32,386 bases of DNA from positions 1 through 32,386 of the forward strand of contig CACXDP010000090.1 in assembly GCA_902766445.1 (NCBI GenBank). Reading direction: 5' to 3'. Below the pieces are notes generated by a model. The model did no database searches and was not told the DNA's origin. It saw nothing but the letters and a program-made list of their open reading frames with translations. Positions within the stretch are counted from its first letter, which is position 1. Each line of letters starts with the position of its first letter. This DNA comes from an uncultured Coriobacteriaceae bacterium. Lineage in GTDB: Bacteria > Actinomycetota > Coriobacteriia > Coriobacteriales > Atopobiaceae. The position numbers were made by a program, and so were the translations under genes. Positions 2,200-8,128 of this stretch are shown here, piece by piece.

Positions 2200-3498
2200 A
2201 TGGCAAACAAATCAGAGTACCGTTGCTCGTTCTTCGGGAAGCCGCGTCAGGCGGCGGGTAGGCTCATCAAAGGCAATGAGGGCATCTATATCTGCGACGA
2301 TTGTGTCCATGCCTGCGTCGACCTCATCAACGAGGCGGATGCAAGAGACGCCCAGGATGGGGCGATAGGGGCGTCTGCCTTGGAGAGCGAGTTTGACGGT
2401 GGCATCGAGAACGGCATCCTGCCCACACCCCACGAGATCTATGAGGAGCTTTCCCGTTACGTGATCGGCCAGGAGCGCGCAAAGCGCGCCATGAGTGTTG
2501 CCGTCTATAATCATTACCGCCGCATCGAGTCGGGCGACGATTCGGTGGCGGAGGACGAGGAGCGCGTCGAGCTCGCAAAGAGCAACATCTTGCTGCTTGG
2601 CCCTACGGGCACGGGCAAGACCCTGCTTGCCCAGACGCTTGCCCGCTTCCTGCAGGTTCCCTTTGCCATTGCTGATGCGACGACGCTTACCGAAGCCGGT
2701 TACGTCGGTGAGGATGCGGAGAACATCCTGCTCAAGCTCATCAATGCGGCTGACGGTGACGTCGAGCGCGCCGAGGTAGGCATCGTCTACGTGGACGAGA
2801 TTGACAAGATTGCCCGAAAGGCAGAGAACCTCTCCATCACGCGTGACGTGAGCGGCGAAGGTGTTCAGCAGGCACTGCTAAAGATTCTTGAGGGCACCGA
2901 CGCAAGCGTGCCCCCGCAGGGAGGACGCAAGCATCCTCAACAGGAGCTCATCCACATCAACACAACTAACATCCTCTTCATCTGCGCAGGCGCGTTCGTG
3001 GGGCTCGACAAGATCGTCGCCGATCGCATTGGCAAGCGCGGCGTGGGCTTTTCTGGTGTCTTGGCGCGCAAGGTGGAGGACGCCACCGACGAGCTCATGG
3101 CGTCCGTCATGCCGCAGGACCTGCAAAAATTCGGCATGATTCCCGAGTTCGTGGGACGCATACCTGTCATAAGCTCCACGACCGAGCTTACTGAGGACGA
3201 CCTCGTGCGCATTCTCACCGAGCCGCGCAACGCCATCGCAAAGCAATACCGTCGCATGTTTCAGATTGAGGGCGTCGAGCTCGAGTTCGAGGAGGATGCC
3301 CTCAGAGCGATTGCGCATCGCGCCATCGAGCGCGAGACGGGTGCACGTGGCCTGCGGTCGATATGCGAGGACGTGCTACAGGACGTGATGTTTGACCTGC
3401 CAAGCGACCTCAGCATCACGCGAGTCATCGTGACGCGCGAGTCGGTGCTCGGGGAGGAGCCACCGCGCATCGAACGTGCAGAGAGCACTCGGGCCTAG
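2200..3498 (+). CDS. clpX: ClpX, AAA+ unfoldase of the ClpXP protease, with a variant zinc domain
   Basis: ClpX recognises, unfolds and translocates substrates into ClpP. The 432-residue product has the N-terminal zinc-binding domain followed by the AAA+ module. Visible AAA+ motifs are Walker A GPTGTGKT (134-141), Walker B IVYVDEID (Asp199, Glu200), the pore loop GYVG, and the VGF version of the ClpP-docking IGF loop in KRGVGFSG. The zinc domain is unusual. The family pattern is CxxC then CxxC, but here it reads CSFF (Cys9, Phe12) and CDDC (Cys32, Cys35), so one ligand is missing; codon 12 is TTC at 2233-2235, one base from TGC. Cys39 is nearby and might substitute. The start is five bases after the clpP stop, with GGAGGAG inside the end of clpP. 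A terminator follows. Confidence 0.95.
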
Positions 3499-3533
3499 GG
3501 ATTTGCCGCATTTGAGTATGGATGTCGCGACAG

Positions 3534-3568
3534 GGCACGCGGAGAGGTGGTTCCCGCGTGCCTTTTTT
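3534..3568 (+). terminator. Rho-independent terminator after clpX
   Basis: A perfect nine-base stem, GGCACGCGG (3534-3542) with CCGCGTGCC (3554-3562), has an 11-base loop and is followed directly by six T at 3563-3568. This is the clearest canonical terminator in the window and closes the tig-clpP-clpX unit. Confidence 0.9.
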
Positions 3569-3665
3569 ACACGCCCACAGCATCCTGATGGTACTTCGCC
3601 GGTGTTTCTAATCGTAACTGAAAGACAAAAAATGCGGGATGCAAACCCCCAATGCGAGCGTCACA

Positions 3666-3674
3666 TGCTATCCT
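3666..3674 (+). promoter_or_regulatory. Candidate extended -10 promoter for the coiled-coil gene
   Basis: TGCTATCCT fits an extended -10 element (TGn then TATCCT) about 70 bases before the chosen start, and no -35 box is recognisable 17 bases upstream. The identical nine bases occur upstream of valS at 5403-5411, which raises confidence in both. Confidence 0.4.
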
Positions 3675-3743
3675 TGTGTGACTAATACGGACCTCGCCCG
3701 ACATGTCGCGTCAGTATCGGGCTTCGCTTTGGTTGGGGGTATT

Positions 3744-5351
3744 ATGAGCATGACTTTGGAAGAGGCACGAAGCAAGGAGAAGGCAGCCCGAGCCATCGTG
3801 GCGAAGAAAGCGGCAGCCCGAGCCGATGCGCAGAAGGCACTCCTTGAGGCTCGCGAAGCTCTGGAAGCGGCTGATGTCGCGCGGAAGCAGGCGAGGCATT
3901 CTCTTGAAGACCTTCAGACAAAGTTACGCTATACCCGCGAGGATATCATGCCAAGCGAAGCTGCCGACAAGCGCGCTCAGCTCGAGTTAAAGACGGCTCA
4001 AGAGGAGTTGAGCGCTTCACGTGCTGCGCGCGAGCAGGCCGAGGAGGACATCAAGAACTGCGTCCAGGCATGCGACGACGCTGAGCGGCTGCTGAGCGAG
4101 GCACAATCAAGGGCCGAGGATGCTGGAGTCGAGGAGTCGACCTCGCGCATGGATCTCGACAGGACGGTCCAGCGTGCCACGGACGCGCAGCGCGATCTCG
4201 ATGCCGTGCAGAAGGCATTCGAGGAGTCGAAGGCGGATCTCGAGGAGGCACGTGCGCAGCTTGCGGAAGCACTCGAAGCGGAGCAAGCGTTGCCCGATGA
4301 CAAGAATCCGCTTGCCCAAGCGATTCGGGTCTGCGAGGAGCGTCTCGCACAGGCGGAAAGCCGGTCAAACGAGGCGGCAGAGTTTCTGGAGGCCGAGCGC
4401 GAGCGTCTTGAGATTGCCGAAGCAGAGGCTGAGGACGCAAAGAAGGCCTACGATAAGGCCCAAGCAAATCTGCGGACGGCGATTGCCGCCTCGGATCGTG
4501 CAGAGGCCCGCTTCAATGAAGCGCGTGAGTCGAGCAACGGAACCGATGAGGACGAGCAGACGGAGCGCCAGGCGCAGTCGGAGTACACCTCGGCATCCGA
4601 GGTTCGCAAGGCAGCGATGGCAGTCAATGCCCAGGCACTCACGACCTTGGCGGATGCAGACGTAGAGGCGATTCGCGTGCGTCTCTCTCGTGATGCCGCA
4701 ATCTCTGCGCTCGATGCCGCAAATGCCGAGCGAGCGCGCGCCGAGCGCGAGCTGCGCGAGGCCAAGGAGGCATCCGAACGTGCGGAGATGACTCGCAGGG
4801 AGTCGAGCGATGTCGTGCGCAAATGGCGAAAGAGGTGTGAAGAGCTCGAGGCGAATCTCGCTGAGGTCGAAAAGCGCGTGCAGGAGGCCACTGAGGAGAA
4901 CGAAGCAGCACAGGAAGGGCTCAAGGATGTCCAGGATGCCACCGTTCGCAGCGGTAAGGCGAGCATCAGCGCCTCGAGTACCCTTGACGAGCGTCGTCAT
5001 GCACTGACAGAGGCCCTCTCGGCGGTTGAGGCTGCGCGCAAGCATCTGGAGGAGTGCAAGCGCCGCGAAGACGAGTGCGCGATTCACGTCGACCTTGCGT
5101 TCACGTCGGCGGAAGAGACCGGACGCTCCCTCGCCGCGGCAAGAAGCTTCATCGAGGATGCCGAGGGTCGTATCGACCGTGGGCGCGAGGAGCTTCAGGT
5201 GGCCGAGCAGCGGGCGGTGGACCTTGCGGCGTCGTTCCGACGCAAAGACGAGGAGCTCTCTCGGGCGCAGCGCGAGTACGATGTGGCGAAGTCCGACCTC
5301 ACCGACGCCGAAGTGTCGGTGATCATGGCCGAGATCGACTCACACATGTAG
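3744..5351 (+). CDS. Large coiled-coil protein of unknown function
   Basis: No enzymatic family is recognised. The 535-residue product is almost entirely Ala/Glu/Arg/Lys/Leu-rich helix with heptad-like spacing from about residue 5 to the end. It has short breaks near PDDKNPLAQ (about residue 190), near SSNGTDEDEQ and near VRSGKASISASS. There is no signal peptide, membrane segment or nucleotide-binding loop, so it is probably cytoplasmic and rod-like. This composition is seen in bacterial filament-forming and scaffold proteins, but also in unrelated coiled coils, so no role can be assigned. The ATG at 3744 follows GGGGG; an in-frame ATG at 3639 would add 35 residues unlike the rest and would include the candidate promoter. 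It is flanked by a terminator upstream and a hairpin downstream, suggesting a single-gene transcript. Confidence 0.85.
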   Translation: MSMTLEEARSKEKAARAIVAKKAAARADAQKALLEAREALEAADVARKQARHSLEDLQTKLRYTREDIMPSEAADKRAQLELKTAQEELSASRAAREQAEEDIKNCVQACDDAERLLSEAQSRAEDAGVEESTSRMDLDRTVQRATDAQRDLDAVQKAFEESKADLEEARAQLAEALEAEQALPDDKNPLAQAIRVCEERLAQAESRSNEAAEFLEAERERLEIAEAEAEDAKKAYDKAQANLRTAIAASDRAEARFNEARESSNGTDEDEQTERQAQSEYTSASEVRKAAMAVNAQALTTLADADVEAIRVRLSRDAAISALDAANAERARAERELREAKEASERAEMTRRESSDVVRKWRKRCEELEANLAEVEKRVQEATEENEAAQEGLKDVQDATVRSGKASISASSTLDERRHALTEALSAVEAARKHLEECKRREDECAIHVDLAFTSAEETGRSLAAARSFIEDAEGRIDRGREELQVAEQRAVDLAASFRRKDEELSRAQREYDVAKSDLTDAEVSVIMAEIDSHM

Positions 5352-5355
5352 GGGT

Positions 5356-5385
5356 CGTGCCGTGATGGGATGCCCCTACGGCACG
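5356..5385 (+). terminator. Hairpin after the coiled-coil gene
   Basis: CGTGCCGT (5356-5363) and ACGGCACG (5378-5385) form a perfect eight-base stem with a 14-base loop, five bases after the stop codon. No T-run follows, so it is either a weak or factor-assisted terminator or a transcript-stabilising 3' end. Confidence 0.5.
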
Positions 5386-5402
5386 TCATAGGTTCTCGCC
5401 TG

Positions 5403-5411
5403 TGCTATCCT
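5403..5411 (+). promoter_or_regulatory. Candidate extended -10 promoter for valS
   Basis: TGCTATCCT, identical to the element at 3666-3674, lies 33 bases upstream of the valS start. No good -35 box is seen. The region between the preceding hairpin and valS is too short for a T-box leader, so valS does not appear to be controlled that way here. Confidence 0.42.
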
Positions 5412-5443
5412 ATTGCAATTGTTGTCTAGAGAAGGTGGCGATC

Positions 5444-8128
5444 GTGGAAGAGATGCCAAAGACGTATGACCCGCAGACGAGCGAACCAGAGCTCGTCGAG
5501 CGGTGGATGGAGGGTGGCTGCTACCAGCGCAGCGAAGGGAACGAAGACTGCACGGTCGTCATTCCGCCGCCTAACGTGACGGGTGTCCTTCACATGGGCC
5601 ACGCCATGGACGATACCATTCAGGATACATATATCCGCTTCAGCCGCATGCGGGGCAAGTCTACGCGCTGGATTCTGGGCACTGATCATGCGGGCATTGC
5701 CACGCAGACCAAGGTGGACAAGAAGCTCAAGGAAGAAGGCATTTCGCGCCTAGAGATTGGCCGCGAGAAGTTCCTCGAGGCATGTCAAGACTGGCGTCGC
5801 GAGTACGGTGGCATCATCGTCGAGCAGATTAAGCGCATGGGTTGCTCCATCGACTTCGATGACGAGAAGTTCACGATGAGCGATGAGTATGCCAAGGCTG
5901 TGCGCAAGGTCTTCTGTGACTGGTATCACGATGGCCTCATCTATCGCGGAAAGCGTATCGTCAACTGGTGCCCGAGCTGCACAACGGCCATTAGTGACGA
6001 CGAGGCGGAGTATCAGGACGAGAAGGGTCATCTCTGGCACCTACGCTATCCGCTTACCGAGCCGGTGGATGGTATCGAGTACATCGAGGTCGCCACGACC
6101 CGTCCAGAGACGATGCTTGGTGATACGGGCATCGCTGTGAGCCCGGAGGATCCGGACAAGGCCAAGTTCGTGGGAAAGACCGTTATGCTTCCCATCGTGG
6201 ACCGTGAGATTCCCATATTCTCCGATTGGCACGTGGACGCGGGCTTTGGCACCGGCTTTGTCAAGGTCACGCCGGCACATGACCCCAACGACTACGCGAT
6301 GGGCCAAGCGCATGACCTTCCTCAGATCAACGTCTTTGACGAGCATGCGGTCGTGGTGGACGGCTATGGCGAGTTCAGCGGCATGGATCGCGATGAGTGT
6401 CGCAAGGCCGTAGTCAAGTGGTTCGAGGAGCATGATCTCCTCGGCGAGATCGAAGAACATCAGCATTCCGTCATGCACTGCTATCGCTGCGACTCGACGC
6501 TGGAGCCCTGGCTCTCCGAGCAGTGGTTTGTGGCGGTGGACAAGCTCAAGGAGCGTGCAACGCAGGTCGTGCTCGACGGTGAGGTGACGTTCCATCCCGC
6601 GCGTTGGACACAGACCTACCTCACGTGGATGGACAACCTCAAGGACTGGTGCATCAGCCGCCAGCTGTGGTGGGGCCATCGCATCCCCGTCTTTACCTGC
6701 GACAAGTGTGGCTGGGAAGACGCCCTCATGGAGGATGTCGAGGTGTGCCCGCACTGTGGCGCGCCTGTGCATCAGGACGAGGACGTGCTCGACACTTGGT
6801 TCTCTTCGCAACTCTGGACCTTCGCCACGCAGGGCTGGCCCGATCATCCCGAGCAGATGCAGGGACACCATCCCACCAAGGTGCTCGTCACGGCTCGAGA
6901 CATCATTGCGCTCTGGGTGGCCCGCATGATTATGAGCTCGCTCTACTTCTGCGACGAGGTTCCCTTCCACGACGTGTATATCTACGCGACCATCCTCGCC
7001 AAGGATGGCAGCCGCATGAGCAAGTCCAAGGGCAACGGCGTCGATCCCATGGACCTCATGGCGAAGTACGGCGCCGACGCCATGCGCTTTGGCCTGCTCA
7101 CGCTCGTGACGGGCAACCAAGACGTTAAGTTCGACGCAAACATCGACAAAGATACTCACGAGCTCATCGACTCGCCGCGCACAGAGCAGGCGCGCTCCTT
7201 TGTGACGAAGATTTGGAACGCGAGCCGTTTCGTGCAGATGAACCTCGAGGGCTATGAGCCGGGTGCGCCCGTGGCAGAGACACCGGAGGACCAGTGGATG
7301 CTCAGTCGCCTGGCACGCGTGTGCGCTTCGGCCACCGAGCAGCTCGAGAGCTACGGTTTCGGTGATTATGCGCGCTCCATCCAGGCATTCTTCTGGAACG
7401 AGGTGTGCGACTGGTACATCGAGCTCTGCAAGGGGCGCCTGCTCGGTGGTACCCCCGAAGAGCGTCTGCAGGTACAGCGAAACCTCGTCTACGTGCTCGA
7501 CGTCAGCATGCGTCTGCTACATCCCGTCATGCCGTTCGTCACCGAGCGCGTGTGGGATGCTCTGCCCGCGAGTGGCCTTGACGCACACGACAAGCCCTTC
7601 CTCATGGTTTCGGCATGGCCCGACCCTGCTGAGCTTGCAGGTTTCGTCAACGAGCAGGCTGAGCGTGACTTCGAGCTTGCCCGCCGTGTCATCTCTGCCG
7701 TGCGTTCTACCCGCGCTCGCTACCGTCTCTCGCCAAAGACCCCGCTTGACGTGCGGGTTCGCGCCCTGGCAGAGGATGCTGCGGCACTCGCGAGTCAGGG
7801 TGACTTCGTGCGCAACGTGGGACGTGTGGGCGAGATTCTGGTGAGCGAAGATGCCGAGAAGCCCGAGGCCTCCATATCCATCGTTGACGGCGACCTGCAG
7901 ATCTTCGTGTCGCTGGGTGGACTCGTAGATTTGGCTGGCGAGGCGAAGCGCATCGAGAAGGAGATTGCCAAGGCCGAGAAGCAGCTTGCGGGCGTCGTGC
8001 GAACCTTGGGTAACCCTGGATTCGTCGCAAAGGCCGCCGCTGCCGTGATTGCAAAGAAGCGCGAGCAGCAGGCAGAGCTCGAGCGCACGATGGCCCAGCT
8101 CAAGGAGCAGCTGGCAGACCTGTCGTAG
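5444..8128 (+). CDS. valS: Valyl-tRNA synthetase
   Basis: It attaches valine to tRNA-Val, with editing of mischarged threonine. The 894-residue product is a class I synthetase. The HIGH motif is HMGH at 50-53 after PPPNVTGVL, and the KMSKS loop is RMSKS at 524-528 before KGNGVDP. The connective editing domain includes TTRPETMLGDT. Cysteine pairs in CDKCGW and CPHCG suggest a zinc site. The C-terminal 60 residues form the usual tRNA-binding coiled coil (EAKRIEKEIAKAEKQL). The GTG at 5444 is chosen because AGAGAAGG lies eight bases upstream; the ATG at 5453 is the alternative and would lose three residues. It is flanked by hairpins and is probably transcribed alone. Confidence 0.97.
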   Translation: MEEMPKTYDPQTSEPELVERWMEGGCYQRSEGNEDCTVVIPPPNVTGVLHMGHAMDDTIQDTYIRFSRMRGKSTRWILGTDHAGIATQTKVDKKLKEEGISRLEIGREKFLEACQDWRREYGGIIVEQIKRMGCSIDFDDEKFTMSDEYAKAVRKVFCDWYHDGLIYRGKRIVNWCPSCTTAISDDEAEYQDEKGHLWHLRYPLTEPVDGIEYIEVATTRPETMLGDTGIAVSPEDPDKAKFVGKTVMLPIVDREIPIFSDWHVDAGFGTGFVKVTPAHDPNDYAMGQAHDLPQINVFDEHAVVVDGYGEFSGMDRDECRKAVVKWFEEHDLLGEIEEHQHSVMHCYRCDSTLEPWLSEQWFVAVDKLKERATQVVLDGEVTFHPARWTQTYLTWMDNLKDWCISRQLWWGHRIPVFTCDKCGWEDALMEDVEVCPHCGAPVHQDEDVLDTWFSSQLWTFATQGWPDHPEQMQGHHPTKVLVTARDIIALWVARMIMSSLYFCDEVPFHDVYIYATILAKDGSRMSKSKGNGVDPMDLMAKYGADAMRFGLLTLVTGNQDVKFDANIDKDTHELIDSPRTEQARSFVTKIWNASRFVQMNLEGYEPGAPVAETPEDQWMLSRLARVCASATEQLESYGFGDYARSIQAFFWNEVCDWYIELCKGRLLGGTPEERLQVQRNLVYVLDVSMRLLHPVMPFVTERVWDALPASGLDAHDKPFLMVSAWPDPAELAGFVNEQAERDFELARRVISAVRSTRARYRLSPKTPLDVRVRALAEDAAALASQGDFVRNVGRVGEILVSEDAEKPEASISIVDGDLQIFVSLGGLVDLAGEAKRIEKEIAKAEKQLAGVVRTLGNPGFVAKAAAAVIAKKREQQAELERTMAQLKEQLADLS

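Follow-up and report, generated by a model that had tools for sequence, protein, structure and literature searches.

The window, meaning the whole stretch of DNA that was analysed (32,386 nucleotides from an uncultured Coriobacteriaceae bacterium), carries between clpX and valS a gene for a long coiled-coil protein. The gene and its flanking signals are as follows:

3744 to 5351, + strand: open reading frame of the coiled-coil protein, predicted to be a hairpin (535 aa; ATG at 3744, stop codon ending at 5351)
3532 to 3564, + strand: terminator-like hairpin with six T, between clpX and the coiled-coil gene (−23.3 kcal/mol, z −4.3)
5354 to 5387, + strand: hairpin 3′ of the stop codon, with no T run (−20.2 kcal/mol, z −2.0)

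The start, stop and length agree with those given in the earlier note on this DNA. An alternative in-frame ATG at 3639 would give a protein of 570 aa; the homologs start at 3744 instead. Comparison with the nearest relative (G009) gave a dN of 0.012 and a dS of 0.456, and with 17 intact members the frame is not the decaying, single-genome one for which the earlier note had allowed: the open reading frame is real and under strong purifying selection. The protein is acidic in all 17 members (pI 4.5–5.7). As had been claimed, it is soluble, with no membrane stretch (the highest 19-residue Kyte-Doolittle mean among the members is 1.17) and no P-loop (0 of 17), and a signal sequence was not seen. 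The claim that the gene has its own promoter-like element was not borne out by a sigma-70 scan of positions 3400 to 5560, which gave none. The hairpin at 3532–3564 is absent from the list of a simple scan; its strength argues that the coiled-coil gene is a transcription unit separate from clpX. A hairpin does lie 3′ of the gene as proposed, but it is modest (equalled by 10 of 200 shuffles) and lacks a T run. Palindromic elements of the GGACAGGTACC / GGGACAGTCCCC type, which resemble dispersed intergenic repeats, lie 3′ of the gene in several members (L003, L004, L006, L012).

Full-length members were found in 17 of the 395 genomes of the order, all in two Atopobiaceae genera and all adjoining clpX and/or valS. 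The family search itself returned full-length matches in 17 of 140 genomes, the three outside the own genus all coming from a second genus, g42. Thirteen further genomes of the order gave weak profile matches, to a short coil only or within long frames, and were left out of the count of 17. Within the genus the gene is present in 14 of 16 genomes, the source genome included; in one of the remaining two the contig (G007:C61) stops 187 bases past the clpX match, and in the other (G005) clpX itself is cut by the contig end. All 17 members have clpX upstream on the same contig, and valS is directly downstream in 11 of the 14 same-genus members. In two others (G001 and G002) two genes separate the coiled-coil gene from valS (L050, 2743–7340; L051, 3239–7761); by eye, one has a LacI-like sensor start, and the other encodes a protein of ~520–540 aa. 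In G004 (L052) valS was not found before the contig end; this genome is rated 100% complete, its contig ends after other genes, and no close valS was seen genome-wide (best row 8e-24). In the second genus the gene adjoins valS in 3/3 members, one of which has ~4 kb between clpX and the coiled-coil gene. The location between clpX and valS is confirmed, and the gene neighbourhood is conserved. At 8 loci of other genera tblastn gave no match to the protein between or beside clpX and valS, and a coiled-coil stand-in at the same site was rejected (0/8 loci, with the open reading frames in the gap unrelated by eye). Ten named loci are metagenome assemblies, several labelled as sheep-gut isolates or of the RUG (rumen) type; their record titles read Atopobiaceae, Coriobacteriaceae, Coriobacteriales, Olsenella or ‘uncultured actinobacterium’.

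Two observations were made on the neighbouring clpX. In the ClpX of the window (2200–3498) Phe replaces the second Cys of the first zinc CxxC (CSFFGK), and in 11 of 11 other same-genus ClpX N-termini that were compared the sequence is CSFCGK. In G009 (contig C361; L059, L078) an in-frame gap takes out the end and stop codon of clpP together with the beginning of clpX, its CxxC included, such that clpP and clpX form a single open frame of 635 codons. In this one metagenome assembly the joined frame is either a natural ClpP-ClpX fusion or an error of assembly.

Searches for known domains bore out the view that the protein has none. Pfam gave nothing up to E 1 except a weak phage capsid row, with neither a DivIVA domain (DivIVA/Wag31; also absent from NCBIfam) nor the MCP signal domain of chemoreceptors among its matches. 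NCBIfam gave only SMC and Rad50 coil rows far below cut-off (best SMC score 35.6 bits for TIGR02168, against a cut-off of 567). A sequence search of solved structures returned two rows, both weak matches to coils, from colicin Ia and tropomyosin (E 0.002–0.003). Together with PADLOC and PHROGs, these searches contain no confident match to a known family of the sort that the earlier note had held in reserve. Assignment to a defence system was rejected, PADLOC having returned weak JetC coil rows alone (best E 0.0065), as was an origin from a phage or plasmid (tblastn of both collections found no match, nor did PHROGs). Titles and opening lines of abstracts published on coiled-coil proteins of Atopobiaceae or Coriobacteriia, cytoskeletal ones included, yielded none on this protein.

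The heptad repeat is exact, with a period of 3.50 over the whole length (power 42.7 at 3.5, and 0.5 at the LEA-like 11/3 period of 3.67); for the single sequence the power was 30.1 against a maximum of 11.3 in 1000 shuffles. In both halves core position a is rich in Leu (0.37 and 0.33) and d is mostly Ala (0.63 and 0.62). The heptad phase is near-constant to residue 262, shifts once at ~263–300 and is then constant to the C-terminus. The earlier description of a near-continuous coil therefore holds in that almost all of the protein is heptad helix, but AlphaFold models of the window protein and of a second-genus member both break the helix near residues 182–187 and 263–268. Length is tightly kept: the members span 532–539 aa, the sole gap in the 14-member alignment lies beside the start codon of one member, and the 17-member alignment, with identities as low as 27%, has a single indel inside the coil, at ~residue 270, at the tip of the proposed hairpin. 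The parts of that hairpin are:

3756 to 4529, + strand: N-arm, residues 5–262 (heptad a at residue mod 7 = 5, d at 1)
4287 to 4304, + strand: elbow-like loop, residues 182–187 (length kept in 17/17 members)
4530 to 4544, + strand: hairpin tip loop, residues 263–267 (the family's only internal indel lies beside it)
4545 to 5345, + strand: C-arm, residues 268–534 (heptad a at residue mod 7 = 1, d at 4)

Charge pairing and covariation both indicate that the C-arm pairs antiparallel with the N-arm such that i+j = 534. If the a-d′ layers of an antiparallel coil satisfy i+j = K, its e-e′ pairs must sum to K+5 and its g-g′ pairs to K−5; the heptad phase permits K = 2 mod 7 only. Charge complementarity of e-e′ pairs was best of 44 sums at 539 (z −4.5, next −1.8) and that of g-g′ pairs best of 44 at 529 (z −4.0, next −1.9); both peaks mean K = 534 (534 ± 5). 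In the combined test register 534 ranked first of 39 (z −5.2), and sequence by sequence it came first in 15 of 16 and second in the remaining one, these sequences being related and hence not independent. The e-e′ sum of 539 was best in all three axial segments (residues 5–100, 101–179 and 190–262), and of the 36 e-e′ pairs in the window protein, 12 join opposite charges and 1 joins like charges. Column covariation, computed without a heptad assumption in bands 15 wide, peaked at 533–536 in 6 of 7 overlapping separation slices and at 528 in the seventh. Entropy-matched, column-centred scans placed the band at 534–535 in 4/4 cases; without column centring another band came first in 2/4, and the single lines 482 and 487 equal 538 in strength. 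The conservation mirror peaks at 540–545, near but not at 534; tests of core side-chain volume and polar-layer correlation do not single out 534, and coarse smoothed-charge stagger tests gave no clear register, which emerged from the heptad-resolved e/g pairs alone.

The coiled-coil and structure predictions that the earlier note had proposed are consistent with a hairpin. AlphaFold placed helices at 5–181, 188–262 and 268–534 in the window protein (pLDDT 88.8, with a low pTM of 0.37) and at 2–181, 186–264, 269–391 and 394–534 in the second-genus member (pLDDT 89.8, with a low pTM of 0.36); the two models share both break sites, and in each the tip is a loop of 4–5 residues. Their topology was read from structural-alignment ranges: hairpins or arm pairs whose centre falls near residue 265 make up many of the top structural matches (for example 5xg2 at 141–389, 5nnv at 136–396 and 2ch7 at 110–422), with Z values of 11–16 that long helices can attain through common arrangement. 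A three-helix bundle of residues 107–342 was rejected, mirror conservation around its two loops showing approximately zero correlation and the alignments centring near 265. The chain very probably folds as an antiparallel hairpin rather than as a straight crescentin-like rod. At the elbow loop the register is unchanged, with 539 the best e-e′ sum on both sides, and the C-arm partner of the loop (~347–352) falls in a pLDDT dip at 341–360. Computation supports the position of this N-arm loop, opposite an unbroken C-arm and ~12 nm from the tip, as that of an SMC-like elbow, which would be a fixed bend or a flex point.

A short motif, LxDA[DE]VxxI, occurs twice:

4647 to 4673, + strand: motif copy 1, LADADVEAI, residues 302–310 (near the tip, on the most conserved surface)
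5298 to 5324, + strand: motif copy 2, LTDAEVSVI, residues 519–527 (at the base)

The copies are 217 residues apart, which is 31 heptads, and share the same heptad phase. In the family profile the windows starting at 302 and 519 were the top match among 127,260 pairs of 12-residue windows, a score that may partly reflect the high scoring of conserved windows generally. The strict pattern is found for copy 1 in 14 of 16 sequences and for copy 2 in 12 of 16, and the spacing is 217 residues in all ten sequences that carry both. Although they sit at outward f and b positions, V307, I310 and V524 do not vary among the 16 sequences; surface entropy is at its minimum around copy 1 and is low at the C-terminal end too.

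Hairpin topology, register, elbow position, repeated motif and strict length conservation are thus supported by computation. In the structure we propose, the N-arm would extend for ~38 nm (258 residues × 0.1485 nm), turn tightly at 263–269, and be met by a C-arm (268–534) returning in register i+j = 534, which would bring both termini together at the base. In the core, Leu (a) would alternate with Ala (d), so that each layer holds a large and a small residue in a tight, Alacoil-like packing. Both motif copies would be exposed on the C-arm's outer side, one close to the tip and the other at the base ~32 nm away, where two like sites could dock partners, or other copies of the protein, at a fixed distance. 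Taken as a whole, with a probability of roughly 55%, the protein is read as a cytoplasmic, free-standing, single-chain strut of ~38 nm with docking sites, resembling an SMC arm without head or hinge. That it acts in the cell as a strut or spacer forming a structural scaffold is a role to which we would give even odds.

Among other readings, an accessory arm of an SMC/Rad50-type machine, packing along SMC arms or the nucleoid to stiffen or space them, is unlikely: the fold of an antiparallel arm with an elbow matches SMC arms and the NCBIfam scores, weak as they are, point the same way, but the structural matches are to generic coil, and the acidic pI makes bulk DNA binding unlikely. We think still less of a proteostasis accessory (an adaptor, tether or holdase for ClpXP or trigger factor), which is suggested by the site after tig-clpP-clpX. 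The ClpX zinc domain is an adaptor binding site. It has lost a cysteine in the window species, and clpX is upstream in every member, once across the ~4 kb gap; however, the zinc domain is intact in other members, the terminator-like hairpin parts the gene from clpX, and other genera have other genes or nothing at that site.

A straight, parallel rod of the crescentin/FilP, intermediate filament-like kind, with two chains of ~79 nm assembling into filaments, is what the earlier note's mention of cytoskeletal filament formers implied, and it now appears very improbable. In its favour, the heptad phase shifts only once along the chain, and the protein falls within a loose definition of rod proteins as having >80 coiled-coil residues and no known functional domain (PMC2680258). 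However, g-e′ pairing in the parallel, in-register arrangement does not exceed chance (z −0.01; best at a stagger of 77 residues, z −2.8), whereas the antiparallel register came first in nearly every sequence, and in PMC10873595 the intermediate filament-likeness of crescentin depends on parallel dimers. What is encoded is an antiparallel hairpin, which may still act as a scaffold or in the cytoskeleton, though as another kind of building block. Least probable of all is an antiparallel homodimer of straight ~79-nm chains with a two-fold axis at residue 267, which would give the same pair statistics, the register depending on which residues pair and not on their sharing a chain, but whose axis would have to fall on a helix-breaking loop that is also the sole indel site, where the register leaves only the length of a tight turn (last layer 264/270) and where AlphaFold closes the chain; these same features of the register centre favour the hairpin.

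A coil score by itself is the usual ground for classing a long bacterial coiled coil as a filament former. For this family, pair statistics over 16 sequences yield both register and topology, which allows the protein to be handled as a hairpin whose crosslink pairs are predicted. An SMC-like arm that stood alone, without head or hinge, would show that such arms work by themselves as struts or rulers, and the hairpin protein offers a small soluble target for testing stand-alone arms. A further proposal, which we hold to be doubtful, is a new class of scaffold in which fixed 38-nm hairpin struts are joined tip-to-base through the two motifs into a lattice or filament; if true, SMC-arm-like hairpins, rather than parallel dimers, would be the units of such a cytoskeletal element.

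Several known systems share parts of this architecture. The best structural row of both models was enterococcal PrgA (6z9l; Z 14.9 and 16.2, rmsd 18.8 and 14.5 over ~500 residues), which shares a long coiled-coil stalk; PrgA is an anchored surface protein, whereas the coiled-coil protein has no signal or anchor. The cytoplasmic hairpin of chemoreceptors (2ch7; aligned at 110–422, Z 11.6, rmsd 9.2) is likewise a long antiparallel heptad hairpin, but the protein has no MCP match in Pfam, no HAMP and no membrane part. With SMC arms (the Smc5/6 arm, B. subtilis Smc 5nnv and the MukB elbow 6h2x) it shares an antiparallel intramolecular coil of tens of nm, an elbow and termini that lie together, and the B. 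subtilis Smc middle fragment (5nnv_D) matched over two strands (Z 12.9, 252 residues, rmsd 8.8). Compared with SMC and Rad50 it lacks an ATPase head (Walker A, GxxxxGK[ST], in 0/17 and the ABC signature, SGG, in 0/17 members) and has no hinge or zinc-hook domain at the tip; the arm is antiparallel, but sequence likeness is at background level and the family scores lie below cut-off. Having no head and no hinge, it is not an SMC member. Crescentin and FilP are, like it, soluble bacterial coiled-coil rods without another domain, but crescentin is built of parallel coiled-coil dimers (PMC10873595), and the pairing computed here is antiparallel. The hairpin protein is thus a rod that lies outside the crescentin class as defined by parallel dimers. 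The part from tip to elbow resembles the two-helix hairpins of the RipA/SteB type and of colicin E-type receptor domains (6ewy; Z 13.5, rmsd 2.9, residues 181–362). Those hairpins are domains of exported proteins, whereas here, with no other domain present, the hairpin is the whole protein.
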